From a candidate division WOR-3 bacterium (GTDB taxonomy: Bacteria > Hydrothermota > Tepidihabitantia > SM23-42 > JAOAFX01), in contig JBDRWD010000002.1 in assembly GCA_039802205.1 (NCBI GenBank), positions 1 to 56,005 on the forward strand: a stretch of DNA of 56,005 nucleotides, in the 5' to 3' direction. The translations under genes and the position numbers were made by a program. Position 1 is the first letter of the stretch. Each line of letters begins with the position of its first letter. The notes below the pieces were generated by a model, which was given only the letters and a program-made list of their open reading frames with translations, had not been told where the DNA came from and did no database searches. Below, in pieces: positions 388 through 14,747 of the stretch.

Positions 388-621
388 ATGAAACAGATTG
401 CAAAGACGATTGATGCTCGGGGATTATCTTGTCCGATGCCAATAGTTAAGCTGGCACAGGCCATCAAGGAAGTTGAAATCGGCGGAGTAATAGAAGTTTT
501 GGCTTCGGATCCTTCATTTATTCCCGATGTTGAAGCATGGTGCCGCAAAACCGAACAGATTCTCTTAGAAGTGATTGAAGAAATGGGGTTGATAAAGGCA
601 TATATCAAGAGAAATAAGTAG
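388..621 (+). CDS. tusA: TusA/SirA-family sulfur carrier protein
   Basis: This is a 77-residue TusA-like protein. The family carries a persulfide on one cysteine and passes sulfur between desulfurases, rhodaneses and DsrE-type proteins. The diagnostic GLSCPMP motif places the carrier cysteine at residue 15. A second cysteine (residue 52, in AWCRKT) matches the W-C/T-K-T region of many TusA-like proteins. I chose ATG 388 because a strong -10 box ends 7 nt upstream; the in-frame TTG at 370 and ATG at 379 lie inside or touching the promoter. It is the first gene of a plus-strand block holding four DsrE-type proteins and a NifS-like protein, which supports a sulfur-transfer role. TusA in tRNA thiolation is the best-known case, but TusA paralogues in sulfur oxidation or respiration also fit. 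Confidence 0.9.
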   Translation: MKQIAKTIDARGLSCPMPIVKLAQAIKEVEIGGVIEVLASDPSFIPDVEAWCRKTEQILLEVIEEMGLIKAYIKRNK

Positions 622-631
622 GGGAAGAGTG

Positions 632-1114
632 ATGAACAATAGAGAGCGAGTTTCAATAATTGTCTTCAGTGGAGATTTAGACAAGTGTCTTGCTGCTTTT
701 ATCATTGGCACTGGAGCAGCCGCTTCGGGTATGCAGGTTGATATGTTCTTTACTTTCTGGGGTTTGAGTGTATTACGTAAAAGAGGGATAAAAGTAAAAG
801 GAAAATCGCTTACGGAGAAGATGTTTGGAATGATGTTACCGAAAGGAGCAGACTCGCTTGCACTATCAAAGATGAATATGTTAGGGTTGGGAACAAAAAT
901 GATGAAAGAGGTGATGAAAAAGAAACGAATCGCCTCCTTACCCGAACTTCTTGAGATTGCACAACAATTCGGAGTGAATCTTTATGCCTGCGAAATGTCG
1001 ATGAAGGTAATGGGTTTGAAAAGAGAAGAACTGATCGACGGAATAAAAGGAATAGTGGGAGTGGCTACATATCTGGAAAATGCTGCTAAATCTCAGATAA
1101 CCTTGTTTATTTAA
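632..1114 (+). CDS. DsrE2-type (DsrE/DsrF/DrsH-like) sulfurtransferase
   Basis: A 160-residue protein of the DsrE_2 family. It opens with the typical IVFSGDLDKCLAAFIIGTGA segment and continues with the hydrophobic MFFTFWGL motif. Its conserved cysteine is residue 120 in YACEMSMKVMG, the family's presumed persulfide site. DsrE2 proteins are often membrane-associated and encoded with tusA, and they have been linked to sulfur trafficking in sulfur-metabolising bacteria. GTG 629 and ATG 632 are adjacent; I prefer the ATG because GGGGAAG lies about 5 nt upstream of it. The gene starts 10 nt after tusA and is surely co-transcribed. The specific sulfur acceptor is unknown. Confidence 0.88.
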   Translation: MNNRERVSIIVFSGDLDKCLAAFIIGTGAAASGMQVDMFFTFWGLSVLRKRGIKVKGKSLTEKMFGMMLPKGADSLALSKMNMLGLGTKMMKEVMKKKRIASLPELLEIAQQFGVNLYACEMSMKVMGLKREELIDGIKGIVGVATYLENAAKSQITLFI

Positions 1115-1121
1115 AAAGGCA

Positions 1122-1481
1122 ATGAAACGAATCGGTTTTCTCGTCACCGGTGGTCCCTACACATTTGAACATCTTGATACGGTTTATCATTTAAGTAAAG
1201 CGGCTTTAGAAAAAGGTATTGCTGTCGATATCTTTCTTTATTTAGACGGTGTCCTGGCTTTGAATAAAAACATTAAATCACCTGGGGAACGCCATATTCC
1301 ATCAATGATGACGGAACTTGTTAATGCGGGTGCGAAGATTGTAGCTTGTGGTGATTGTGCACACTTCAGGGGAGTATTTCGGGAAAATGTGGTTGAAGGA
1401 ACAAAACTGACTGGTATTGCCACTCTGGCTGAGATGATTGACGAGTGTGACCGATTTATAAGTTTCGGTATAGACCAATGA
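1122..1481 (+). CDS. DsrE/TusD-like sulfur relay protein
   Basis: A 119-residue DsrE-superfamily protein with a Rossmann-like start (MKRIGFLVTGGPYTFEHLDT). A cysteine pair (residues 76 and 79, in VACGDCAHFRG) occupies the place of the active cysteine in DsrE/TusD. In DsrEFH and TusBCD complexes the D/E subunit is the catalytic persulfide carrier. It lies 7 nt after the DsrE2 gene and overlaps the next gene by 4 nt (ATGA), as in a hetero-oligomer operon. Family assignment is from motif and context; whether it works in tRNA thiolation or in sulfur energy metabolism cannot be decided here. Confidence 0.8.
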   Translation: MKRIGFLVTGGPYTFEHLDTVYHLSKAALEKGIAVDIFLYLDGVLALNKNIKSPGERHIPSMMTELVNAGAKIVACGDCAHFRGVFRENVVEGTKLTGIATLAEMIDECDRFISFGIDQ

Positions 1482-1828
1482 AAAAAATAGTAATTTTGAG
1501 CACCAAACCACCCTACGGGTCTTCAATCAATGCTGAAGCATTTCGCGCGGGTTTGGGACTCGCATTTTCGGAAATGAAGGTTGATTTGATACTCATCGGT
1601 GATGGAGTTTATTCCGGAATAAAAAAGCAATCCCCAGAACAACTACAAATGAAGCCACTCTCGGAAGTTTATAAAAATATCACTGAATATCGCATAAATC
1701 TGTTTATTGATAAAGATTCAATCGAAGAAAGGAATCTAAAAACGGACGAACTGGTCTCAGCACCTTTGATAACGCGAGCACAATTGAAAGAGAAAATTAA
1801 TACCGCTGATGTTATTTTAACATTCTAA
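1478..1828 (+). CDS. DsrF/TusC-like subunit
   Basis: A 116-residue protein with the DsrE-superfamily opening (MKKIVILSTKPPYGSS, AFRAGLGLA) and the GDGVY segment typical of the DsrF/TusC branch. It has no cysteine at all, so it cannot carry a persulfide itself. That matches TusC/DsrF, the structural subunit of the complex. It overlaps the preceding DsrE-like gene by 4 nt and is followed 3 nt later by the DsrH-like gene, giving the canonical E-F-H (D-C-B) order. Confidence 0.78.
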   Translation: MKKIVILSTKPPYGSSINAEAFRAGLGLAFSEMKVDLILIGDGVYSGIKKQSPEQLQMKPLSEVYKNITEYRINLFIDKDSIEERNLKTDELVSAPLITRAQLKEKINTADVILTF

Positions 1829-1831
1829 AAT

Positions 1832-2092
1832 ATGAAAACCCTTTATCTTTTTACCCAAACACCAAACGAATTTAACATTAAATTATTAAAAAATTTAATC
1901 GATGATACTGATTGTGTTATATTTATCCAAAACGGAGTTTATTTTGCCAGACATGAGCTTGCCTTGGGTTGTCAAGGATATGTTTTAAATGCCGATTTAA
2001 AGGCGCGGGGTATTGAAACAGGTCTGAAAACAATTAATTATGATGAACTTGTTGATTTGTTTTTTACTTATGAAAGAATAGTCACAATATAG
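1832..2092 (+). CDS. DsrH/TusB-like subunit
   Basis: An 86-residue protein. The motif CQGYVLNADLKARGI, with a cysteine at residue 47, resembles the conserved C-terminal region of DsrH/TusB, where the cysteine precedes a short VLNADLKARG-type stretch. A second cysteine is at residue 28. It completes a three-gene DsrEFH/TusDCB-like set. The stop codon overlaps a strong AGGAGG Shine-Dalgarno for the next gene. Confidence 0.8.
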   Translation: MKTLYLFTQTPNEFNIKLLKNLIDDTDCVIFIQNGVYFARHELALGCQGYVLNADLKARGIETGLKTINYDELVDLFFTYERIVTI

Positions 2093-2101
2093 GAGGCCTT
2101 A

Positions 2102-3319
2102 ATGAGTGAAATATTTGGAAAGGGTATAGATAAAAAGGCAGAGATAAAAGAAATAATAAGAAAGATACATCGCGGGGTGGGTGTGGGAGAGATGAAAAAA
2201 AAGTTTGCTGATATAATAAAAGGCGTATCACCAGAAGAATTAGCCAAAATTGAGGAAGAATTAATAAAAGAAGGAATCCCGGTTGAAGAGATACGCCGGC
2301 TCTGTGATGTTCATATTGCCTTGTTTAAAGAATCCATCGAAAAAGAATTACTCCTTGCACCGGAAGGACATCCAATACGGATCTTAATGGAAGAACATAA
2401 AATATTGTTATCATACGCGCAGGGAATAAAAAATCTTGTTGAAGGGCTAAAATTAAAAAAGTCTTTCAATGAAGTCAAAAATCAGCTTGATACACTTGAG
2501 GATATCGCTTCTCATTTTAAAGATTCTGAAAAGCATTATTTAAGGGAAGAAAATGTTCTTTTTCCCTACCTCGAAAAACACGGTATCACCCAACCCCCCG
2601 CGATTATGTGGTCTGAACATAATCAAATTCGTGAACTGAAGAAACATTATTATGATATTCTTGCAAAAAAGAATGTTTTAGATTACAACGAATTTATCAA
2701 ACAGATTGATGAGGTTGGAATAAAAATTAATGAAATGCTTGTGAGTCATTTTTACAAAGAAAATAACATTTTATTCCCAACTGCAATGAAAGTAATTAAC
2801 CAGGATGAATGGGGCGCAATCAAAAAGGAATTCACGGAAATAGGCTATTGCTGTTTTACCCCGAATGTTGCAGAAAAGAGTTTGGAATCAACCGGTGAAA
2901 CGCTTTCTCATGTATCCGAAAACCGGATAAATCTTGAAACCGGTACTTTGACGATTGAAGAACTCGAAAATATCCTAAATACACTGCCAGTAGATATCAC
3001 ATTTGTCGATAAAGATGACACGGTGGTCTATTTCAGTCAAACAAAAGAACGAATTTTTACAAGAACCAAGGCAGTAATAGGAAGAAAGGTTCAACAGTGT
3101 CATCCACAAAAAAGCTTACATGTTGTTAATCAAATTCTTGATGACTTCAGAAATAAAAAAAGGGATTTAGCAGAATTTTGGATTAATATGGGCGGAAGGG
3201 TGATTTATATAAGATATTTCGCAGTAAGAAATAAAAGTGGCGAATATCTTGGATGTTTAGAAGTAACCCAGGACATTACAGAAATACAAAAAATTACTGG
3301 TGAAAAAAGATTATTATAG
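2102..3319 (+). CDS. DUF438-hemerythrin-PAS domain protein
   Basis: A 405-residue protein with three recognisable parts. Residues about 10-80 are a helical DUF438-type region. Residues about 88-228 are a hemerythrin-like HHE domain with likely di-iron ligands H99, H138/H145 with E149/E150, H173, H216 and E220; the HYLREENVLFP and HFYKENNILFP segments are diagnostic. Residues about 280-395 are a PAS-like sensor domain (ITFVDKDDTVVYFSQTKERIF). There is no kinase or output domain, so it is probably an oxygen-, NO- or redox-sensing protein or a protein partner. AGGAGG 5 nt upstream fixes the start. Its place between sulfur-carrier and ferritin-like genes suggests redox sensing or protection for the cluster (inference). 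Confidence 0.88.
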   Translation: MSEIFGKGIDKKAEIKEIIRKIHRGVGVGEMKKKFADIIKGVSPEELAKIEEELIKEGIPVEEIRRLCDVHIALFKESIEKELLLAPEGHPIRILMEEHKILLSYAQGIKNLVEGLKLKKSFNEVKNQLDTLEDIASHFKDSEKHYLREENVLFPYLEKHGITQPPAIMWSEHNQIRELKKHYYDILAKKNVLDYNEFIKQIDEVGIKINEMLVSHFYKENNILFPTAMKVINQDEWGAIKKEFTEIGYCCFTPNVAEKSLESTGETLSHVSENRINLETGTLTIEELENILNTLPVDITFVDKDDTVVYFSQTKERIFTRTKAVIGRKVQQCHPQKSLHVVNQILDDFRNKKRDLAEFWINMGGRVIYIRYFAVRNKSGEYLGCLEVTQDITEIQKITGEKRLL

Positions 3320-3327
3320 GAGGGTTT

Positions 3328-3834
3328 ATGGCTAATCTTTTTTGTGCCAGCGAAGTTGTGGAAATAAGCATTGAAGCCCGGAAAAGAGGATTTGAATTTT
3401 ATAAACGCGTAGCAAAAAAAACAAAATCCCCAGACATAAAAGAGACATTTAAATGGTTGGCGTCCCAAGAAGAAAAACAGATTGCCATGCTACAAGATAT
3501 TCTGAAAAAAATTGAAGTCTGTCAGCCCTTTGAACTGTATCCTGATGAATACGCTATGTATGTGCAGGCATTATTAAAACGCCATACTTTTAATGATATA
3601 AAAAAGAAAGACTTATTAAAGAAAATCAAAACAAATGCGGATGCCGTGGATACAGCGATTGAATATGAAAAAGATTCTTTACTCATTCTCTACGAAATGA
3701 AGAATTTCGTCCGCAAACAGGAGAAGAAGATTATAAACAAATTGATAAAAGACACCCAGGCCGATATAAACCGACTAAATAATTTAAAAAAATGTCTGTC
3801 AAGCAAAGATCTTAAAACATGTCTGTTGAAATAA
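3328..3834 (+). CDS. Ferritin-like/rubrerythrin-like protein with degenerate di-iron site
   Basis: A 168-residue four-helix protein with the spacing of the ferritin/rubrerythrin family: E16 in helix 1, QEEKQI (48-52) in helix 2, AIEYEKDS (E112) in helix 3 and QEKKI (E132) in helix 4. In active members helices 2 and 4 carry ExxH. Here both positions read ExxI, so both metal-ligand histidines are missing. There is no rubredoxin domain, but there are cysteines at 6, 65, 156 and 165. The preceding gene supplies an AGGAGG site, and the stop is 1 nt before the NifS-like gene. It may be a non-catalytic structural member or bind iron differently. Confidence 0.75.
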   Translation: MANLFCASEVVEISIEARKRGFEFYKRVAKKTKSPDIKETFKWLASQEEKQIAMLQDILKKIEVCQPFELYPDEYAMYVQALLKRHTFNDIKKKDLLKKIKTNADAVDTAIEYEKDSLLILYEMKNFVRKQEKKIINKLIKDTQADINRLNNLKKCLSSKDLKTCLLK

Positions 3835-3835
3835 A

Positions 3836-5056
3836 ATGAAGCAGGTCTATCTTGATAACGGATCGGCAACCAGAATTGACCCCAGGGTTCTTGAAGCGAT
3901 GTTGCCTTTCTTAAAAGAGGAATATGGTAATGCTCAGAGCCTTCATTCTTTAGGTCAACGAGCGAAGGATGCTCTTGAGACTGCTCGGATAAGCGTTGCC
4001 CGATTGATAAATGCCCAGCCGGAAGAGATAATCTTTACTTCATGCGGTTCAGAATCTAATAACCTCGCTCTTAAAGGTATTGCTCATGCCTACCAGGAAA
4101 AAGGGAAACACATCATCGTTTCCAGTATTGAACATTTTTCGGTTTTGCAGGCAGCAAAAAGACTTGCCCGAGAAGGTTTTGAGATAACCTACCTACCAGT
4201 TGATAAGTATGGATTCGTCAAACCTGATGATTTAAGAGCAAAACTGCGAAACGATACCATTTTAGTTTCAATCCAGCATGCCAATCCCGAGATTGGAACG
4301 ATACAACCGATAAAAGAGCTCACTGAAATTACCCATCGGGCGAATGCCTTATTTCACACCGATGCCGTGGCGAGTGCGGGTGTTATACCCTTGGATGTTA
4401 ATAGACTTGGCGTTGACCTTCTGAGTTTTGTTGGTGCGACCATGCACGGGCCTAAAGGAGTAGGAGCATTATATTTAAAGAAAGGAACTCGAATTATTCC
4501 ATTGATCGACGGTGGGGTTCAAGAATCAGGGAAAAGGGCGGGTACCGAAAATATTCCTGCGATCGTCGGTTTCGGCAAAGCCTGTGAAATTGCTCTTATG
4601 GAAATGGAAATAAATCAAGCAAAAATACAAAAATTGCAACAAAGATTGATTCAAGAATTACCGCAAAGGATTGAATATATTTATTTAAATGGCCACCCCC
4701 AGGAACGTTTGCCTAATAATGTAAATTTCTCAGTAGAATTTGTGGAAGGTGAAAGTATGCTTTTATTTTTAGATCAGAAGGGAATATATGTTACCAGCGG
4801 CTCGGCTTGTACATCACGAGCTTTGAAAATGTCCCATGTATTGGAAGCCATAAAGCTTGATCCCGCTGTAGCCCAAGGTTCGGTATTGATGGTGTTATCA
4901 AAGTATAATACCGAGGAGGATATTGATTATGTTCTCAATGAATTTCCACCAGTAGTTCGCCAATTGCGAGACATGTCTCCACTCTATGCTTATTTTTTAA
5001 AAACTGGAAAGAGAATGGAAGCCGGACCAGGCACTGATTATGAACACCATCATTAA
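3836..5056 (+). CDS. NifS/IscS-like protein lacking the PLP-binding lysine
   Basis: A 406-residue protein collinear with IscS/NifS cysteine desulfurases, with a constant four-residue offset to E. coli IscS. It keeps H100 (IscS H104) and the persulfide-loop cysteine C325 in SGSACTS (IscS C328). The Schiff-base lysine is replaced: where IscS reads S-G/A-H-K, this protein reads VGAT, with T202 at the K206 position. Other cofactor contacts are also altered: P151 for N155, A179 for Q183 and A201 for H205. The frame is intact and the fold motifs are kept, so this is a pseudoenzyme or an altered enzyme, not a decayed gene. The C-terminus ends in three histidines. Its neighbours suggest that it binds or passes persulfide to TusA/DsrE proteins (inference). 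Confidence 0.88.
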   Translation: MKQVYLDNGSATRIDPRVLEAMLPFLKEEYGNAQSLHSLGQRAKDALETARISVARLINAQPEEIIFTSCGSESNNLALKGIAHAYQEKGKHIIVSSIEHFSVLQAAKRLAREGFEITYLPVDKYGFVKPDDLRAKLRNDTILVSIQHANPEIGTIQPIKELTEITHRANALFHTDAVASAGVIPLDVNRLGVDLLSFVGATMHGPKGVGALYLKKGTRIIPLIDGGVQESGKRAGTENIPAIVGFGKACEIALMEMEINQAKIQKLQQRLIQELPQRIEYIYLNGHPQERLPNNVNFSVEFVEGESMLLFLDQKGIYVTSGSACTSRALKMSHVLEAIKLDPAVAQGSVLMVLSKYNTEEDIDYVLNEFPPVVRQLRDMSPLYAYFLKTGKRMEAGPGTDYEHHH

Positions 5057-5065
5057 AATAAGAAG

Positions 5066-6337
5066 GTGGACGACCGTCTAGTAAAATTGAAAAAGCCAAA
5101 AAACCTTTTAGATCTTCCTATTGAAGTGATGCCCACTCCGGCACGAGTCTTTATTCCGTTACAACAACATAAAGGATTACCAGCAATTCCGGTGGTAAAA
5201 AAGGGAGAAACGGTCAAAATTGGTAGCAAAATTGGCGAAGCAAATGGTTCTGTCTCGGCAAATATTCATGCCAGCGTTTCCGGAAGGGTTGTTGATATTA
5301 AACTTCATCCTCATCCTAATTTGAGAGAAAGTTGGTGTTGCATAATCGAAACGGATTATGCTAATAATTTGGCCCAAGAATTTTCTGATTTTGATTTTTA
5401 TTCACTTCGTCCTGAAGAACTTCTTAATAAAATTGAGGAAGCTGGGATTGTAGGTTTGGGAGGCGGTGGGTACCCCACCGCTCAAAAATTGCGGGCGGCA
5501 ATGACTCGGGAGTTAAATTTACTGCTTATCAACGGTTGTGAATCGGAACCCAACCTCACCGCCGATTATCGTATCATGCTTGAGTATCCTGAAAAAGTAA
5601 TAGAAGGAGCAAAAATCATCCAGAAAATTTTGGATGTACCAAAAATGATTTTTGTTTTTACCAAGCGCTATCAAAAAGCCGCTGAATTATTTAAGAAAAA
5701 GGGAGTCCAAGTGAGGGTCTTTGCTGATAGTTATCCTCTTGGTGCTGAGCGTCTTCTTTTAAAAGAATTTACCAAAATTGTTCTTCCCTATGATAAGTTG
5801 CCCATCGATGCTGGAGTAGTAGTGCATAATGTAAACACATGCTATGCAATTTATCAGGCTATAAAGTCCGGCAAACCGTTAATTGAGCGCGTGGTTACAA
5901 TCAGCGGTAATGCCATTAATAAACCAAAAAATCTCTTGGTAAAAATTGGGACACCAGTGCGCGAGATAATCCAGTACTGTGGAGGTTTGAGAAGAAATTT
6001 AAAGAAAATAATCTTTGGCGGAGTGATGACCGGCAATGCTCAGTTTTCTCTTGATACGCCGGTCATTAAAACCACTCCGGGCATCGTGTTTCAAGATACG
6101 ATTATGAATGAAGAAACACGGGATTGTGTCCAATGCGGTAAGTGTATTGACGTTTGCCCAGTTGGTATTTTTCCTGCTATGATTTATAGAACTATCCGAA
6201 GGGGACAGTTTGAAGAGGCCCCTAAATACGGCCTTAACGAGTGTTTAGAATGCGGAAGCTGTGCTTATATTTGCCCCGCATTCATTCCCTTGGTTCACTA
6301 TTTTAAATATGCGCGGCTGCGAAATGTTGCCGGATGA
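5066..6337 (+). CDS. rnfC: RnfC-like electron transport subunit
   Basis: A 423-residue RnfC homologue. In Rnf complexes RnfC is the cytoplasmic subunit that exchanges electrons with NADH through FMN and two [4Fe-4S] clusters. An N-terminal biotinyl-lipoyl-like region (FIPLQQHKGLPAIPVVKKGE) is followed by the nucleotide-binding glycine loop GLGGGGYPT near residue 130. Two complete ferredoxin motifs follow: C354-C357-C360-C364 and C393-C396-C399-C403, each CxxCxxCxxxCP. The start is GTG with a weak ribosome site (AAGAAGG abuts it); the alignment to RnfC N-termini supports it, although the usual GGIHPP tip is shortened. It lies 9 nt after the NifS-like gene and overlaps rnfD. Confidence 0.92.
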   Translation: MDDRLVKLKKPKNLLDLPIEVMPTPARVFIPLQQHKGLPAIPVVKKGETVKIGSKIGEANGSVSANIHASVSGRVVDIKLHPHPNLRESWCCIIETDYANNLAQEFSDFDFYSLRPEELLNKIEEAGIVGLGGGGYPTAQKLRAAMTRELNLLLINGCESEPNLTADYRIMLEYPEKVIEGAKIIQKILDVPKMIFVFTKRYQKAAELFKKKGVQVRVFADSYPLGAERLLLKEFTKIVLPYDKLPIDAGVVVHNVNTCYAIYQAIKSGKPLIERVVTISGNAINKPKNLLVKIGTPVREIIQYCGGLRRNLKKIIFGGVMTGNAQFSLDTPVIKTTPGIVFQDTIMNEETRDCVQCGKCIDVCPVGIFPAMIYRTIRRGQFEEAPKYGLNECLECGSCAYICPAFIPLVHYFKYARLRNVAG

Positions 6338-7322
6338 TAATCTAATTGTTGTCTCCTCTCCCCCACATATTCACTCCGGTCTAAGTATAAAGAAAGCAGT
6401 ATTCATTGTAATTTTATGTCTTATACCTGCTGTGGTTGTAGGAACAATGGTTTATGGTTTTTATGCATTGAGCGTGGTGTTAATAAGTGTCATTTCGGCC
6501 GTGCTCTTTGAGCAATGTTTTGAATATTGGCACAAGCAAGGTCGATTCATTACCGATGGCACAGCGGCTTTGACTGGACTGCTCCTGGGACTTTCCTTAC
6601 CACCTGCGATTCCTCTCTGGATTCCTGCAATAGGAGGAGGTTTTGCCGTTATCATTGCTAAGCATGCCTTAGGTGGCTTGGGATTTAATCATCTCAATCC
6701 CGCATTGACCGCCCGGGCATTTCTAATGCTATCCTTTCCACAGATAATGATTACGAGTTATAAATCACCGTTTCATGGGACATTATTGGGGTTGGATACT
6801 ATCACTACTGCTACCCCCCTCACACTATTAAAAAACACTGGTTATTATGGCACACCAACGGGTGTTTTAGAACAATTGCATAGTCCGGAAATGTTTAAAC
6901 TCCTTTTTCTCGGTAATATTGGTGGATCTATTGGAGAGACTTGTAAAATTGCCCTTATCGCTGGCGGCGCCACCCTTTTGATATTAAGAATCATTGATTA
7001 TCGAATCGTTACCGGTTACATGGTTAGTTTTTGCTTGATTAATCTCATTCTACCCGGAAGAATCAATCTTTTATTTCAACTATTTACGGGTGGATTGTTG
7101 CTGGGAGTATTTTTTATGGCCACGGATTGGGTAACTTCTCCAATCACCCCAGAAGGCCGCTGGTTATTTGGAATTGGTTGTGGCTTATTTACGGCCCTCT
7201 TTCGGTATACTTTGGAATATCCGGAGGGTGTAACACCCGCCATCCTGCTGATGAATCTTTCTGTGCCCCTGCTTGATAAAATTGTGGTTTGGAAAAGGAG
7301 TAAAAAATGGCAAAGAAATTAA
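6324..7322 (+). CDS. rnfD: RnfD-like membrane flavoprotein subunit
   Basis: A 332-residue polytopic membrane protein of the RnfD/NqrB family. The start is set at ATG 6324 (MLPDDNLIVVSSPPHIHSG), which aligns with the usual HIHS-type N-terminus; upstream in-frame codons lie inside rnfC. The covalent-FMN motif DTITTATPL is at residues 158-166, with T164 as the expected flavinylated threonine; family members usually read SGATPL or TTATPL. FNHLNPALTARAF and the late ATDWVTSPITPEGR segment are strongly conserved. It overlaps rnfC by 14 nt and rnfG by 16 nt, showing translational coupling. Confidence 0.92.
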   Translation: MLPDDNLIVVSSPPHIHSGLSIKKAVFIVILCLIPAVVVGTMVYGFYALSVVLISVISAVLFEQCFEYWHKQGRFITDGTAALTGLLLGLSLPPAIPLWIPAIGGGFAVIIAKHALGGLGFNHLNPALTARAFLMLSFPQIMITSYKSPFHGTLLGLDTITTATPLTLLKNTGYYGTPTGVLEQLHSPEMFKLLFLGNIGGSIGETCKIALIAGGATLLILRIIDYRIVTGYMVSFCLINLILPGRINLLFQLFTGGLLLGVFFMATDWVTSPITPEGRWLFGIGCGLFTALFRYTLEYPEGVTPAILLMNLSVPLLDKIVVWKRSKKWQRN

Positions 7323-8212
7323 ATGCTAATTTAATCGTCTTTATTTTTCTTTTATTGAGCTTCATTGTAAATACCGAGATTTACTTTCACATCCGTCCCC
7401 TGATTGCACAGACAGTGACAAATAACAAGCAAGGAAGATTTAAGACCCTTATCGATGGTGCTGAATTTTTTACGATTATTCCCGATACCCTGTGGCAGGC
7501 ACTTGATTCGGCAAAAAACTTAAAGGGATATATATTTAAAGTTTGGCCCAAGGGCTATGTTGGAATTATCCCAATAACTGTAGGAATTGATACGGCTCAA
7601 AGGGTCAGCGGTATCTATATCGGTGGTCCTGCCGAAGGTTTCAAAGAGACCCCTGGTCTTGGTTCTCGGGTTCGCGAGAAATCATTCCTTAACCAATTTT
7701 TGGGCAAGGAAATTTCTAAAATCGCATTAAAAAAAGACGGAGGTGAGATTGATGCAGTATCTGGGGCAACAATATCGTCCCGGGCAGTGTGTGAAGGGAT
7801 CAAAAAAGGGTTTGAACAATTACAGCCTCTGCTGTTTTCATCTGGCAAGTCTGATATACGCCAGGAAATCTTTTCCGGTGCCAGAGTTTTTGAGGAAATT
7901 ATAAAGGACACACTCTGGTATGCCCTATCTGGCGGTGAAACTTTGGGGCTCGTGTTCACCGGATATACCCTCGGTTACCTGGATACAATTAAATACCTTG
8001 CAGGTATAAATAAAAATGGCGGTATAGAAAGAATTATCATCACCTATTCTCACGAGACTGATGGAATCGGAGAGAAAATTAGAGAAGCAGAATTCCTCAA
8101 TAAATTTAAAACCGAGATTCCCGACGCGATAAGTGGGGCGACAATATCTTCAATGGCATTAATAGAAAGTATCAAACAAAACCTCGAAAGATTTAAGGAA
8201 TACCTTAAATGA
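7307..8212 (+). CDS. rnfG: RnfG-like subunit with two FMN-binding domains
   Basis: A 301-residue protein, about half as long again as ordinary RnfG. A single N-terminal membrane helix (residues about 9-22) is followed by an extracytoplasmic FMN_bind domain with the flavinylation motif DAVSGAT (149-155). A second, shorter FMN_bind-like domain ends in DAISGAT (273-279). Both fit the Dxx(S/T)GAT pattern recognised by ApbE flavin transferase, so two covalent FMNs are expected where RnfG normally has one. The conserved ETPGLG segment is present in the first domain; the second has only ETDGIG. It overlaps rnfD by 16 nt and rnfE by 4 nt. No apbE is visible in the window. Confidence 0.9.
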   Translation: MAKKLNANLIVFIFLLLSFIVNTEIYFHIRPLIAQTVTNNKQGRFKTLIDGAEFFTIIPDTLWQALDSAKNLKGYIFKVWPKGYVGIIPITVGIDTAQRVSGIYIGGPAEGFKETPGLGSRVREKSFLNQFLGKEISKIALKKDGGEIDAVSGATISSRAVCEGIKKGFEQLQPLLFSSGKSDIRQEIFSGARVFEEIIKDTLWYALSGGETLGLVFTGYTLGYLDTIKYLAGINKNGGIERIIITYSHETDGIGEKIREAEFLNKFKTEIPDAISGATISSMALIESIKQNLERFKEYLK

Positions 8213-8787
8213 AAGAATCCATCAATAAAGAAAAAGAATTTATACAAATCATCATGGGCACCATACCTTTGATAACATTTACGGATTCAATCACGAATGC
8301 CTTAACAAGCGGAGTTTTATTGCTTTTAACCTATCTATTATCAGCCACCATTTATCTACCAGTTGTTAAGAGGTTAAATGAGCCAGCAAAAACATTCACC
8401 TTTTTGATTATCACTGCGACTATCATTTCAATTTTTGATAATTTTATTGCCGGCTATCTACCCCAAATCCATATTGGTATAAACCAATTTCTGCCCCTCA
8501 TTGCTGTGAATAGCTTCCTCTTTGCGGGATTAAGAAATCCGACGTTGACAGATTCAAATGCAAACTTTATTCTGTATCATACGCAGAAATGTTTCCATTG
8601 CATTTTTTTACTGACTATTATTGGAATGTGCCGAGAAATAATCGGGAAAGGAACTTTATTTAATCAACCATTGATAATTTCGGAACCTGATGGATATCTA
8701 TTTTTGCCGGCAAGTTCATCTTGGGGTGCCTTGTTGATTGTCGCGATGGTATTTTTAGTTTACGGTCTGCAACGTAGAAAAAAATGA
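8209..8787 (+). CDS. rnfE: RnfE-like membrane subunit without the cluster cysteines
   Basis: A 192-residue six-helix membrane protein. Conserved RnfE blocks are easy to see: TNALTSGV, FLPLIAVN and CREIIGKGTLF. In canonical RnfE one cysteine in GLCP and one in TNC help hold a [2Fe-2S] cluster at the RnfA/RnfE interface in the middle of the membrane. Here the first reads GTIP (I19) and the second VNS (S102), so both ligands are gone. There are other cysteines (127, 130, 140), with C127xxC130 in a different segment. The gene overlaps both neighbours by 4 nt. It is intact and probably translated, but electron transfer must differ from that in known Rnf. Confidence 0.87.
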   Translation: MKESINKEKEFIQIIMGTIPLITFTDSITNALTSGVLLLLTYLLSATIYLPVVKRLNEPAKTFTFLIITATIISIFDNFIAGYLPQIHIGINQFLPLIAVNSFLFAGLRNPTLTDSNANFILYHTQKCFHCIFLLTIIGMCREIIGKGTLFNQPLIISEPDGYLFLPASSSWGALLIVAMVFLVYGLQRRKK

Positions 8788-9356
8788 ACGCAATTTTATC
8801 GCTCCTTTGGGAAACATTAACAAAAAATAATGTTTGCCTCTATTACCTGCTGGGAATCTGCCCGTTACTTCTCTATAATTTAAATTTAGGAGAATCATTC
8901 ATTACCGGCTTGGTCATTATCCTCCTCATGGTGCTTGGTAATTGGGTAGTTTTTATTATAGAGAAAATTTTCCTTTTACCACTGGGATTGAGCTATATGC
9001 AAATTTCTTTCTTTGTTTTAATCATCTATCTCCTTCTCTATTATTCAAAAATTATGGTTAAAAGGCTGCCGGGGAACTTATCAGATTTATTTGATAACTA
9101 CCCTGAATTCTTTTTCACCAACTATGCAATATATGGGGTGATATTTTTAAATCGATCCAGCAATTTGCCATTTTGGGAAACTACCGTTGCTTCATTTGGT
9201 TTTGGATTTGGTTATCTGGTAATATTAGTCCTCTTTATGCTGATAAAGGAAAAAATGAATATAAATGAAAGAATGCCTATCCCTGTTTTCCGACAATTGC
9301 TCATCCTCAGTTTGATGAGCCTGGTTTTTATGAGTTTGATTTTTAAGCAAAGATGA
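8784..9356 (+). CDS. rnfA: RnfA-like membrane subunit with one of two cluster cysteines
   Basis: A 190-residue six-helix membrane protein of the RnfA/NqrE family, recognised by NNVCLYYLLGICP near the N-terminus and the FTNYAIYGVIFLN segment, which aligns with TTNCAVLGVALLN of RnfA. C26 in GICP is kept. The second ligand of the interfacial [2Fe-2S] cluster is replaced by Y114. Together with RnfE, only one of the four expected cysteines remains. Sequence drift is greater here than in rnfC/D. It overlaps rnfE and uvrD by 4 nt each. No rnfB follows; the next gene is a DNA helicase. Confidence 0.82.
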   Translation: MNAILSLLWETLTKNNVCLYYLLGICPLLLYNLNLGESFITGLVIILLMVLGNWVVFIIEKIFLLPLGLSYMQISFFVLIIYLLLYYSKIMVKRLPGNLSDLFDNYPEFFFTNYAIYGVIFLNRSSNLPFWETTVASFGFGFGYLVILVLFMLIKEKMNINERMPIPVFRQLLILSLMSLVFMSLIFKQR

Positions 9357-11287
9357 ATAATCGTTTCCAGATCAATTTTACAGGAGAATTGAACAAAGAA
9401 CAATGGGAAGCCGTTCAGATAATCGATGGACCCATTTTAATTCTCGCAGGTGCGGGAAGTGGCAAAACAAGAGTCATCACCTATCGCATTGCTTATTTGA
9501 TAACAAAAGGAATAAATCCGGAAAATATCCTGGCAGTAACTTTTACTAACAAAGCAGCTGAGGAGATGAAAAATCGGGTTTGTTATTTGTTAAACCAAGA
9601 TGATACCGGAGTTTGGATTCGGACTTACCATTCAACCTGTGCCCGAATTTTAAGGAACGAATCGGAAAAAATTGGAATTCCGCAGAATTTTGTTATATAT
9701 GATGAAACCGATCAACTCTCTCTAATCAAAGAAGTGTTGAGTGAATTGAATCTTGACACTCGGGAGTTAAAACCGGATTTTGTCTTACAGTGCATTAATC
9801 ATGCAAAGGAAAATTTGATTGACCCTGATAATTATTATAATCCAGTCGATGATAGATTCAGCAACATAATCAAAACCATTTATCGAATATATAATCAAAA
9901 ACTTAAGGAGTCTAATGCCCTGGATTTTGATGACCTAATTTTAAAAACAATCGAATTGTTTAAAATCCAGCCCGAAATCCTTGAAAAATATCAGGAGCGC
10001 TTCAAGTACATAATGGTGGATGAATATCAAGATACCAACCGCGCGCAATACATTTTTACCAACTTATTGGCAGCAAAATACCGAAATCTCTGTGTGGTAG
10101 GTGATGATGATCAGTCCATTTATTCCTGGCGCGGGGCTGAAATCAGAAACATTCTTGATTTTGAACGGGATTACCCAGAAGCCAGAATTATCAAGCTTGA
10201 ACAAAACTATCGTTCCACGAAAATAATTCTTAGAGCTGCATCAGAAGTAGTAAAAAATAATACCCAGCGGAAGCCAAAAATCCTTTGGTGTGAGAATGAG
10301 ACTGGTGAGCCAATTGAATACTTCAATGCAGAAGATGATAAGCAGGAAGCACAGTTTGTTGCTCAGAAAATCCTCGAGGAACATTATCGAGGCATGGAAT
10401 TTAGCGAAATCGCCGTTTTTTATCGTTTAAACTATCAATCAAGAATTTTTGAGGAATATTTCACAGAGTATAAAATTCCCTATGAAGTGATCGGTGGATT
10501 AAAATTTTATGAGCGCGCCGAGATAAAAAATATACTCGCATATTTACGAGTAATAAACAATCCTACCGATTCGGTAAGTTTGAAGCGAATAATAAATCTA
10601 CCAGCCCGAAATATCGGAAAAGAAACACTTGATAAAATAATCAGATTTCAAAAAGAAAATAACTTAACACTTTTTGAAAGTTTAAGAAAAATTTCTGAAA
10701 TAAATGGAATAAGTAAAAAAAGTTTAGAAAGTTTAGAGACTTTTATAAAAATGATAGAAAAATTTAGGGAATTGAGCAAAAAATTAAATCTCTATGACCT
10801 AACTCTCCGCATCGCCAATGAAACGGGTTATCTTGAATATTTGCATAGAAGAGAGACAGAAGAAGAAATCAATCGTCGTAAAAATGTAGAGGAATTGCTC
10901 ATATCCATAAATGAATTTGTCAAAAATAATCCATCAGCCACAATTCAGGATTATTTAGAAGGTGTTTCTCTAAGAAGCGATATTGATGACTGGTCAAATG
11001 AGAAGGTCTCTTTAATGACATTACATAATGCAAAGGGACTTGAGTTTGATGTTGTGTTTATAACCGGATTAGAAGATGGGATAATACCGCATTATAAGGC
11101 AAGGGAAGAAGGACGGTATGAAGAAGAGAGAAGATTGCTATATGTGGGGATAACAAGGGCAAAGAAAAAATTGTATATTACAACCGCGGATAAACGTCGA
11201 AATTATCAGGGCAATTCTATTTTTACAAGAAATTCACCATTTTTAAAGGAGATACCCGATGAAGTCTTTGCAACATTATACAGATAG
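9353..11287 (+). CDS. UvrD/PcrA/Rep-type superfamily 1 DNA helicase
   Basis: A 644-residue SF1A helicase acting in DNA repair or replication restart. Visible motifs are Walker A AGAGSGKT (32-39), Walker B VDEYQDTN, motif III GDDDQSIYSWRGAE, motif IV LEQNYRST, motif V LMTLHNAKGLEF and motif VI LYVGITRAKKKLY. It is slightly shorter than PcrA/UvrD (about 720 residues), mostly at the C-terminus, so the Rep/PcrA/UvrD subtype cannot be assigned. It overlaps rnfA by 4 nt, so it is co-transcribed with a functionally unrelated cluster. Confidence 0.93.
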   Translation: MNNRFQINFTGELNKEQWEAVQIIDGPILILAGAGSGKTRVITYRIAYLITKGINPENILAVTFTNKAAEEMKNRVCYLLNQDDTGVWIRTYHSTCARILRNESEKIGIPQNFVIYDETDQLSLIKEVLSELNLDTRELKPDFVLQCINHAKENLIDPDNYYNPVDDRFSNIIKTIYRIYNQKLKESNALDFDDLILKTIELFKIQPEILEKYQERFKYIMVDEYQDTNRAQYIFTNLLAAKYRNLCVVGDDDQSIYSWRGAEIRNILDFERDYPEARIIKLEQNYRSTKIILRAASEVVKNNTQRKPKILWCENETGEPIEYFNAEDDKQEAQFVAQKILEEHYRGMEFSEIAVFYRLNYQSRIFEEYFTEYKIPYEVIGGLKFYERAEIKNILAYLRVINNPTDSVSLKRIINLPARNIGKETLDKIIRFQKENNLTLFESLRKISEINGISKKSLESLETFIKMIEKFRELSKKLNLYDLTLRIANETGYLEYLHRRETEEEINRRKNVEELLISINEFVKNNPSATIQDYLEGVSLRSDIDDWSNEKVSLMTLHNAKGLEFDVVFITGLEDGIIPHYKAREEGRYEEERRLLYVGITRAKKKLYITTADKRRNYQGNSIFTRNSPFLKEIPDEVFATLYR

Positions 11288-12407
11288 AATAAATAAATTT
11301 CGGAAATTATTTCCAATAACCAAAGATAAAATTTACCTAAATCATGCAAGCACCGGACCGATGAGTATAAACGCAAAAAAGGCAATTGAAGAATGTATAA
11401 AGGTCTATCAGAGCCAGGCAGAATTTGATTTCGAGACATATTTTGAAAAATTGCGCACCAGCAGAAAACTCTTTGCAAAACTTATCAATGCCGAACCTGA
11501 AGAGATCACATTCACCCATAATACATCAGAAGGGATATATATCGCCCTGATTAATCTACCTCTGAAAGAAGGTGATGAGATAATTGTAATGAACGAAGTC
11601 TTCCCCGCGGTCCGTTATGTTGTTCAATACAACATCCCAGGAATAAATAAAAAATTTGTGAATCTGTGTGGCGGAGATCCGCTCAAAATAATTAAGAAAA
11701 ATATCACCCGTAAGACCCGTGCAGTGGTGCTTGACCATACCCAGTTCTTTACTGGAGAAATGATTGATTTATTCCCATTATCCGAATTTTTAAGAGATAG
11801 AGAAATATATCTTATTGTTGATGGGATACAATCAATCGGAGCGATTGAATTTGATACAAAAAAAATACCAGTAGATTTTCTTGCTTCGGGTGGTGGTAAA
11901 TGGTTATTTGGGCCGGGTGGTGCGGGCTTTTTATATGTAAATAAAAGAAATTTCAAAATTTTAAAAAGGCTTCATACCGGTTGGCTCGGCGTTGACTGGA
12001 AGGGTTTTGAAAATTTTGAGACCTCTCCCCCACTATTTAATGATGCAAGGATGTTTGAAATGGGCACGAGGAACATAATTGGATTGAGCGGATTGACTGA
12101 ACATATAAAAATCTTGCTGGAATTTGGTGTGCGTAATGTTGAAAATAGGGTATTAAGATTAAAGCGGCTGTTAAGAGAAGGATTTAAAAAATTAAATATC
12201 CCAGTAATTACGCCTGAAAAAGGACCACAATCAGGTATCATCACGATAAAGCCAGAAAATCCCAGAAAAGTATATGAATACCTGAACAAGAACAAGATAA
12301 TTATCTCATTGCGTAATAATTGTTTGCGCTTTTCCCCCCATTTTTATAACACGGAAAACGAAATAGAAAGGGTTTTTGAAATATTAAAAAAATCCTTTAA
12401 CTCTTAG
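11259..12407 (+). CDS. Class V aminotransferase (PLP-dependent)
   Basis: A 382-residue fold-type I PLP enzyme of the aminotransferase class V family (isopenicillin-N epimerase/cysteine desulfurase-like). The expected features are intact: the phosphate loop THNTSEG (87-92), D188 and Q191 in IVDGIQSIG, and Schiff-base K214 in ASGGGKWLFGPGG. It contrasts with the lysine-less NifS-like protein upstream. There is no SGSAC-type persulfide loop, so it is unlikely to be a classic group I desulfurase. AAAGGAG at 11246 sets the start, which overlaps uvrD by 29 nt. The substrate is unknown. Confidence 0.85.
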   Translation: MKSLQHYTDRINKFRKLFPITKDKIYLNHASTGPMSINAKKAIEECIKVYQSQAEFDFETYFEKLRTSRKLFAKLINAEPEEITFTHNTSEGIYIALINLPLKEGDEIIVMNEVFPAVRYVVQYNIPGINKKFVNLCGGDPLKIIKKNITRKTRAVVLDHTQFFTGEMIDLFPLSEFLRDREIYLIVDGIQSIGAIEFDTKKIPVDFLASGGGKWLFGPGGAGFLYVNKRNFKILKRLHTGWLGVDWKGFENFETSPPLFNDARMFEMGTRNIIGLSGLTEHIKILLEFGVRNVENRVLRLKRLLREGFKKLNIPVITPEKGPQSGIITIKPENPRKVYEYLNKNKIIISLRNNCLRFSPHFYNTENEIERVFEILKKSFNS

Positions 12408-12535: not shown

Positions 12536-14747
12536 TCACAATTCATACTTACCAACCGGGTCATCGCACCGCACCTCCATTGTCTTCATATCGTTATCCC
12601 AGGTTATCTCCTTTATTTCAACATCACTATCTCTATCTTTGTTTTTCACTTCCATCGCCTCCCGCACCGAAACCGTATCCATCGCCTTATTAAACACCAC
12701 CTTAATCTTTTGATAGATATCAACATCATGAGTACCTGCCTGTGGGTCGGTGGATTCCACCACCGGTGGTCCTTCCACCCGCAATTGAAAGATTGTCTCT
12801 TTGGATTGATGCGTTGGGTCATTGGTTAAATCCTTCACCCTGATTATCACCGGCAATAACTGATTTGGAGTTTCAAGGGTATTGGAAAGCTCATACTCAA
12901 TCTGATACTCATGCTTTACCCCATCAACCTCAATAATTGATACCTTTGCCGGGTCAAATGCCTTATCAACCTGAGAAAAGTCCACAGTCAATGTTGAATT
13001 ATTCCCAATATGCACCTTATCACTCAAATCAACTTTTAACCTGACTTTTTCTTTTGGTTTATACCAGTTATCTGTATCAAGATTCAATACCTCTCTCGTT
13101 GAGCCATTTTGGGGATTCTCTTGATATGATTTCTGAAAGACCGGCACAATCGCAAAGGAATAGCGATACTGAATCTCGGCACCTGAGGTATCAAGATTTG
13201 TTGGGATAAAAATAATCTCGGCAATATCATTCGGGTCTGAACCACCAATCGGAATTGGATAATTGTATGCTTTGTTATTTGCCAATATAATCTCACCCTT
13301 CTCTTTTGTGCCATTAACTTTTACTTTCACAAAAGGCACAGCCCAGATTAACTTTTCGCCATCACCTTCAAAATTGAAATAGAGCATCGTCCTATCATCA
13401 ATCTGGACAGGCTTAACTACTCTGATATAATGGCAGGCAAGATGGGGTAACCAGATTGGTGAACCATTTGGAAAATTCCCCTCCTCCCAGGGCACCGGGG
13501 AACCAATGTTATCTGGCGGTCTATTGGCATAATGCTGATTGTTGTTGGGTGGAACTGTATTATATCTTTGTTCAATGTGAACTTCTGGATAATCGGCTCC
13601 CTCCTCATACCCATCCACCCCAGTCTTTATATAATTCGCACAGACAAAGGATTTGAAGAAATCCTGAAAACTTTTAAGTTTATCAAGTCCCGGGGATGTC
13701 TCTACCAGCACTTTCATCACACTATTACCCCGTTTGCACTCCGCAACCCTGCCAGATCACCCGAATCTGTCCAACACCCCGACGCTCCGAAATCAACTTC
13801 GGAAATATCACAGCCCCATACTCATGGTCACTATTAGAATTATCCAACGACCACTCAGGACAGTCAGTAAAATGATGAATATATCCTACATAATTATTCA
13901 CATCATCATATACTTCATCCTCCATCCATACCGCAGTCCCCTCAATCCACCACTCAGCTTCTCCAGGATCATAACCCGTGAACTGAACCGCATGAAAAAA
14001 CTCATGGGCAACAAAAACACCGCGCAACTGTATAGGGATATCATTATCTAAATGTATTCTAACTACATTAATCAAAAATTCTGTCTTGACTGAACCACCA
14101 GTATTGTAAAGATATACCTGAAGAGGTAAATACCCCCCTGAAATCTCCTTATATTTATACTCACCTATCTCCTGCTGCCAGGAAAAATTAAACCGCCCAT
14201 AAAGGTCATCTATGTAATCTGGCACACCATTTTGATTATTATCTGCACTACTTATCGCATACTCACCCTCAAGCGTATACCTAAAGACAAAACGCCCACT
14301 TGCTTTCCAGGTCAACTACTCAATCGGAGGTAAATCAAGAATTATCTTGGTTGTGTCACCCGGATAATATGAAAAATAATTAAGCAACGCTTGTTTTATT
14401 CCAAAAGGCAGTGACATCCATTTCTCTTTTATCTCATCAATCACACCAGTGCCACACCTTAATCGAACTATGCCCCAAGGTATATCAGGTATCCTCGGTA
14501 ACTTCGTGGTGTCAAATAAGGCATAAACCCTGTATAAAACTGCTGAATCAGGACTTAATCTCCCGATTCGCTCCCAATAATCAATACCACCCAGTGAACC
14601 CCGACGGTAAACCTCTCTTTGCCAAATTCTGGTAAAAAGATAGTAAGTTGTATCAGGTGCTTTAAACCCACTTTCCTCTGCCCCTGCCAGTGAGACCAAA
14701 CACAGGGCAGAGATGATTGTGATCATTAAAGTCCTTTTGCTAAGCAT
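12536..14747 (-). pseudogene. Decayed secreted HEFFH metalloprotease with Ig-like domain
   Basis: Three consecutive minus-strand pieces form one former gene. Piece 1 (14747-14316) has an AGGAGG ribosome site and a signal peptide (MLSKRTLMITIISALCLVSL) and stops at an in-frame TAG at 14318-14316. Piece 2 (14315-13725), in the same frame, carries the zinc-protease motif HEFFH and the downstream glutamate in WWIEGTAVWME. Piece 3 (13720-12536) continues in another frame after a +1 shift near 13755. It reads into beta-rich domains and an SbsA-like Ig domain (ESTDPQAGTHDVD). The family resembles the MXAN_6640-type putative metalloproteases. Two independent lesions make it a probable pseudogene. The C-terminus stops abruptly at GKYEL without a sorting domain. 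Confidence 0.82.

Follow-up and report, generated by a model that had tools for sequence, protein, structure and literature searches.

Textbook Fe-S cluster assembly begins with a cysteine desulfurase. In Escherichia coli that enzyme, IscS, draws on cysteine to form a persulfide, which it passes to TusA. Both IscU and TusA are partners of E. coli IscS (PMC2854127), and its K206A and Q183E variants are each inactive, while R354K is not and K206A retains some PLP binding (PMC9978102). The minimal ISC (MIS) system comprises a cysteine desulfurase and a scaffold with no carrier (PMC12192291), and in anaerobic E. coli sulfide can feed IscU without IscS (PMC13015791).

Lysine-less forms of IscS are already known from archaea and from at least one Aquifex-type protein. 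The IscS of Archaeoglobus fulgidus (IscS2; PDB 4eb5, 4eb7, 4hvk, and 4r5f for a D199K variant) has Asp in place of the catalytic Lys and is reported to be without desulfurase activity and to contribute a Cys as ligand of the [2Fe-2S] cluster on IscU (PMC7585200); 4eb5 and 4eb7 are, by their PDB titles, structures of its complex with IscU. IscS1 of Methanosarcina acetivorans (MA0808), another archaeal protein and one that we liken to ours by description rather than by sequence, is likewise without the catalytic lysine, and IscU1 is encoded together with it (PMC7585200). Among bacteria, the Aquifex-type protein of PDB entry 9wfy reads AHL at the lysine motif, while six related entries (9wfe, 9wfb, 9wf8, 9wew, 9wer and 9wep) have K there and, read from their sequences, would be lysine-restored variants. 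This series shows that work on a lysine-less protein from bacteria is already in progress, and our literature search turned up no paper on lysine-less desulfurases of bacteria or on the 9wfy entries themselves.

A NifS/IscS-like protein without the Schiff-base lysine

The window analysed here is a stretch of 56,005 nucleotides from a candidate division WOR-3 bacterium, in which a reading of the DNA letters alone had picked out a NifS/IscS-like protein with Thr at the place of the PLP lysine (Table 1). Pfam, an AlphaFold2 model and structure matches agree that the protein has the class-V aminotransferase fold of the IscS group. Its best NCBIfam model is NifS (TIGR03402), at 510.1 bits and under the 530.75 cut-off, and the model, built with 38 homologues, has a mean pLDDT of 92, its best structure matches being NFS1, E. 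coli IscS and A. fulgidus IscS (Z of ~55-58). Residues 324-329, the Cys loop, have pLDDT values below 50, so the model makes no statement on the position of the loop.

Table 1. Features of the sulfur-carrier operon, the lysine-less gene and its key codons (positions in the window)
Feature	Position	Strand	Evidence
TusA-like sulfur carrier, SCPMP motif, Cys15 and Cys52	388-621	+	Pfam TusA, 5e-21
DsrE2-like sulfur carrier	629-1114	+	Pfam DrsE_2, 5e-58; NCBIfam SulfCarrDsrE2, 6.6e-28, under cut-off
DsrE/TusD-like subunit, CxxC (Cys76, Cys79)	1122-1481	+	Pfam DsrE, 1.1e-23
DsrF/TusC-like subunit, without cysteine	1478-1828	+	TIGR03010, 2.9e-20
DsrH/TusB-like subunit	1832-2092	+	Pfam DsrH, 3.9e-11; TIGR03011, 9.5e-12
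DUF438-hemerythrin-PAS protein	2102-3319	+	Pfam
Ferritin/rubrerythrin-like protein	3328-3834	+	Pfam Rubrerythrin, 7.7e-6
Lysine-less NifS/IscS-like protein, 406 aa, class-V aminotransferase fold	3836-5056	+	Pfam Aminotran_5, 7e-84
Codon 202, ACC (Thr), PLP-lysine position (K206 of E. coli IscS)	4439-4441	+	Sequence, alignments
Loop cysteine Cys325 (C328 of E. coli IscS), in SGSACTS	4808-4810	+	Unchanged in all 44 bacterial and all 15 archaeal lysine-less rows
Codon 331, Lys, basic residue adjoining the Cys loop (E334 position)	4826-4828	+	Row comparison
Rnf-like genes (C, D, G, E, A)	5066-9356	+	Gene order

The protein was aligned with E. coli IscS, in a sequence whose key residues land on the published numbers. 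Where the HK motif with the Schiff-base lysine should be, the window protein has Ala201-Thr202 (H205>A201, K206>T202), and the DNA around the ACC codon reads SFVGATMHGPKG. The further substitutions N155>P151 and Q183>A179 and the retention of H104 (His100) and C328 (Cys325) are as originally described; D180 (Asp176) and T243 (Thr237) are likewise retained. A small detail of the original prediction that has to be amended is its constant four-residue offset from E. coli IscS, which holds up to K206 and is three at C328. Not remarked on before is the replacement of R354 by Leu351. With K206, Q183 and R354 all gone, and with the E. coli K206A and Q183E variants dead, cysteine desulfuration should be abolished in the window protein; the expectation that normal desulfuration would not occur is, on this comparison of residues, well supported.

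Thr at this position is shared with two congeneric genomes, in which the motif reads ATIYGPKG and STIYGPKG. Among the three copies dN is 0.08-0.11 and dS runs from 1.7 to saturation (for the window gene against its congeners, dN is 0.10-0.11 and dS ~2.3 or saturated); this low dN beside a high or saturated dS indicates strong purifying selection on the protein.

The operon and its genome

The lysine-less gene lies in an operon with genes for TusA, DsrE2, DsrE, DsrF and DsrH, and the DUF438-hemerythrin-PAS protein encoded with them is possibly an iron or redox/NO sensor or donor. The Rnf-like genes begin 9 bases past the NifS-like gene; their names were given by reading the open reading frames, not by family search. 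In one congener the same block from TusA to the lysine-less NifS is found and the Rnf-like genes are not adjacent. Farther along the window, 11259-12407 (+) encodes a second protein of the class-V aminotransferase fold, with its lysine kept in GGKWLFGPGG and 29% identity over 177 residues to the 3836-5056 product, and at 12536-14747 (-) three abutting open reading frames (143, 196 and 394 aa) look like pieces of a single peptidase-type protein (HEFFHAVQF), split by an in-frame TAG at 14316-14318 and by a break in the region of 13720-13725.

No IscU gene adjoins the lysine-less gene in the window or in its nearest relatives. The genome (2.65 Mb, 96% complete) encodes a single NifU_N/IscU protein, on another contig (C92), in the order ferritin-like, ferritin-like, IscU, thioredoxin-domain protein, ferritin, second TusA, P-type ATPase; a search of the same genome found no SUF core proteins. 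It has one other close homologue of the lysine-less protein, a normal NifS with the HK motif (C13:49324-50472) that is 51% identical to it and has MnmA directly after it. In two relatives (L122 and L123) three ferritin-like genes (Rbr-Rbr-Rbr) precede the lysine-less NifS gene, which in L123 is followed by IscU. The first of the three belongs to the family of the window gene at 3328-3834 (27-29% identity, the highest among the three), and the first C92 gene has its best match in the second (45-48% identity), so that the ferritin-like paralogues tie the window gene indirectly to the distant IscU.

A bacterial lineage that has released its catalytic residues

The lysine-less state is not a peculiarity of one genome: the check for clade-wide loss proposed with the original prediction found it shared across a lineage represented by 44 bacterial rows and present in about a dozen bacterial phyla. 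Within the phylum of the window's own organism, lysine-less copies score at least 590 bits with the group profile and occur in families f1, f5, f6, f7 and f9 of the class, while the remaining homologues score at most 556 bits, those that were fetched (L142-L149) all having HK. A scan of 85,000 species genomes yielded about 35 further lysine-less copies, which by their record names come from Elusimicrobia/Endomicrobia, Desantisbacteria, Omnitrophota, Planctomycetota and Scalindua, Anaerolineales/Dehalococcoidia, Acidobacteria/Aminicenantes, Saganbacteria, Clostridia/Syntrophomonadaceae, Desulfobacterales, Nitrospirae, Aquifex and Proteobacteria. In most genomes that encode a lysine-less copy there is a further NifS homologue.

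Across the lineage the K206 position drifts among Q, S, T, R, V, I, L and P (Q in 20 rows, S in 9, T and R in 5 each, V in 2, the others singly). Q183 is retained in 4 of the 44 rows and R354 in none, while C328, H104, D180 and L333 are present in all of them. Position 334 is K or R in 44/44, as against K in 1 of 31 lysine-bearing rows, where Glu is usual; in addition A106 has become S in every row and H350 has become Q in 41. This pattern, as read from the aligned rows, is beyond chance, and with Q183, K206 and R354 lost and C328 invariant it indicates that the catalytic residues were released and the cysteine was not, a basic residue being gained nearby.

One member of the lineage, from Nitrospirae (L074:8001-9152), retains HK together with Q183C, R354Q and E334K and adjoins TusA and IscU; it is possibly an intermediate or a reversion. 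The 9wfy protein resembles the window protein in having a Lys after the Cys loop (SACVSLALKQS) and has Pro at Q183 and Val at R354 but, unlike the window protein with its Ala201, retains H205. Its relative L093 forms a deep or separate branch in our trees.

Sulfur carriers beside lysine-less genes

Neighbours were counted within 1.5 kb and on the same strand for 28 archaeal and 55 bacterial lysine-less genes and for 66 lysine-bearing genes, the family names being checked by Pfam on representatives, MnmA included. TusA or DsrE adjoins 27 of the 28 archaeal and 22 of the 55 bacterial lysine-less genes (15 of the 43 with full flanks), as against 2 of the 66 lysine-bearing ones, and those two, L074 and the archaeal L069, both have a degraded Q183. 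At many of the bacterial lysine-less loci no TusA gene is in range. MnmA shows a different distribution, being adjacent in 2/28, 0/55 and 24/66, respectively. IscU, a second conserved partner that the original prediction did not name, is adjacent in all 28 archaeal and in 35 of the 55 bacterial lysine-less loci, but its adjacency to lysine-bearing genes is similar (42/66) and so is by itself no marker of the lysine-less ones.

Fisher tests of the TusA/DsrE linkage, which ignore phylogeny, give p = 3.8e-5 for the bacterial and 1.5e-16 for the archaeal genes; a tree-aware sign test of the TusA association has only 1-3 independent contrasts and no power, so the strength of the linkage rests on its recurrence in two lineages and on the varied gene orders. 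The residues of E. coli IscS that contact TusA (W45, E49 and R237) are conserved in neither the lysine-less nor the lysine-bearing group and, being variable in canonical proteins too, are uninformative on TusA binding.

Other neighbours were also seen. ODP-type (flavodiiron-like) proteins adjoin 9 of 44 lysine-less and 0 of 28 lysine-bearing genes (L009:296-1474, L034:9337-10632 and relatives), hinting at an oxygen-stress context. In family f6 (L014:3346-4142 and relatives) lysine-less NifS and IscU are followed by a glutaredoxin and then by a ferredoxin-thioredoxin reductase beta chain fused to a rubredoxin domain.

The archaeal parallel and the number of origins

The archaeal precedent, also new relative to the original prediction, is close. 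A. fulgidus IscS is ~49% identical to the window protein over 377 residues (1.2 A), and its sequence, checked against PDB 4eb5, has lost the lysine, has Ala at Q183 and Leu at R354, as the window protein does, and keeps the loop Cys. Its archaeal relatives have lost the lysine, Q183 and R354 alike, and Cys328 is invariant in the 15 archaeal lysine-less rows; the same losses with the same retained cysteine, an Archaeoglobus-type signature, are found in the window protein. The two groups differ at the site itself, where the archaeal clade has a fixed Asn-Asp at 205-206 (Asn-Glu in one case) with Gln or Glu at 334, whereas the window protein has Ala-Thr, the bacterial lineage is variable there, and its residue 334 is basic (Lys in the window protein). 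In gene order, A. fulgidus IscS has IscU next door, whereas the window gene has it on another contig; the A. fulgidus gene has DsrE directly upstream, and its close archaeal relatives have TusA and DsrE there.

In trees built after removing the trait columns, the archaeal lysine-less clade nests among archaeal lysine-bearing NifS proteins, apart from the bacterial lineage (SH-aLRT 96 in the larger tree). Its sister is a hydrothermarchaeotal protein (L069:6200-7357) with HK retained and Q183I, which adjoins TusA and IscU. The archaeal and bacterial lysine-less lineages were joined in 0 of 1000 bootstrap trees, and the AU test of joining them gave p = 0.08, and p = 0.32 on the larger, quick tree. 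A single common origin of both losses is thus disfavoured but not rejected, and the trees favour, without proving, separate origins.

Discussion

The reading that we prefer, with a probability of roughly 0.58, is that the window protein is a platform of the IscS type that is not a desulfurase, and that it hands sulfur on to IscU or contributes a cluster ligand, its own sulfur coming from TusA/DsrE or from sulfide. A protein of the NifS/IscS fold that has lost its PLP Schiff-base lysine and other cysteine-handling residues would no longer desulfurate cysteine, but its fold and mobile Cys loop would still offer a platform for the IscU scaffold. Sulfur would be supplied by carriers of the TusA/DsrE type or directly as sulfide, and Cys325 would either relay it to IscU or, like the cysteine of A. 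fulgidus IscS, ligate the cluster for a time. Iron delivery or protection against oxygen may be the task of the ferritin-like and hemerythrin proteins, and the separate normal NifS beside MnmA would perform cysteine desulfuration, at least for tRNA. E. coli IscS shares with the window protein the fold, the Cys loop, H104 and D180; with the cutting site gone from the window protein, sulfur would be expected to travel the opposite way. The original prediction had suggested that the loop could still carry a persulfide, with transfer to the TusA at 388-621 as a point to check. The cysteine that might carry it is retained throughout the clade, and the gene linkage in both lineages argues for a connection with TusA; if there is transfer, its likely direction is the reverse, from TusA/DsrE to a protein that is not expected to make persulfide from cysteine.

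A role as a sulfur-trafficking hub among TusA, DsrE2 and DsrEFH, serving tRNA, cofactors or stress and with IscU no partner here, would fit an operon from which IscU is absent, and the f9 relatives, in which the lysine-less NifS gene is accompanied by DsrE2 and TusA, again without IscU. The frequency with which IscU adjoins lysine-less loci elsewhere, and the IscU complexes solved for the archaeal protein, make this unlikely. It is improbable that the protein is still a PLP enzyme, binding PLP non-covalently through H100, D176 and T237 or using another lysine such as K331 for slow desulfuration or some other reaction: the H104, D180 and T243 equivalents are retained, E. coli K206A binds some PLP and all of the bacterial lineage has a basic residue at 334, but the E. 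coli K206A and Q183E variants have no activity, the A. fulgidus protein is reported to be inactive too, R354 and Q183 have gone along with the lysine, and the K206 position drifts freely. We give little credence to a regulatory pseudo-subunit that would form heterodimers with canonical NifS and tune or redirect its sulfur; NifS/IscS proteins are dimers, and a canonical partner is at hand in this genome and another homologue in most of the others, but the two genes do not lie together, and the lysine-less copies stand in operons of their own with IscU and TusA. An assembly or sequencing error at codon 202, or a decaying pseudogene, for which nothing speaks beyond the odd residue, is ruled out by the congeners that carry Thr there too, by lysine loss in other families and many phyla, by the full-length open reading frame and by a dN of ~0.1 against saturated dS.

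If the platform reading is extended to both domains, it is tempting to suggest a cysteine-independent ISC branch, in which an IscS fed by TusA/DsrE could dispense with its desulfurase site; the site would have decayed at least twice, in bacteria and in archaea, and what remained would be nothing but a relay or ligand platform for IscU, with L074 and L069 as surviving intermediates. We offer this tentatively, at odds somewhat short of even. As far as the searched literature shows, three things are new: how widely the bacterial lineage extends, its joint loss of Q183 and R354 accompanied by the gain of a basic residue at 334, and the TusA/DsrE linkage common to both lineages. If the platform reading is true, cluster assembly in many anaerobes would draw on sulfide or sulfane sulfur by way of a former enzyme, genes annotated as cysteine desulfurases in these phyla would often not encode desulfurases, and what has been a single unusual archaeal case would become part of a general pattern.
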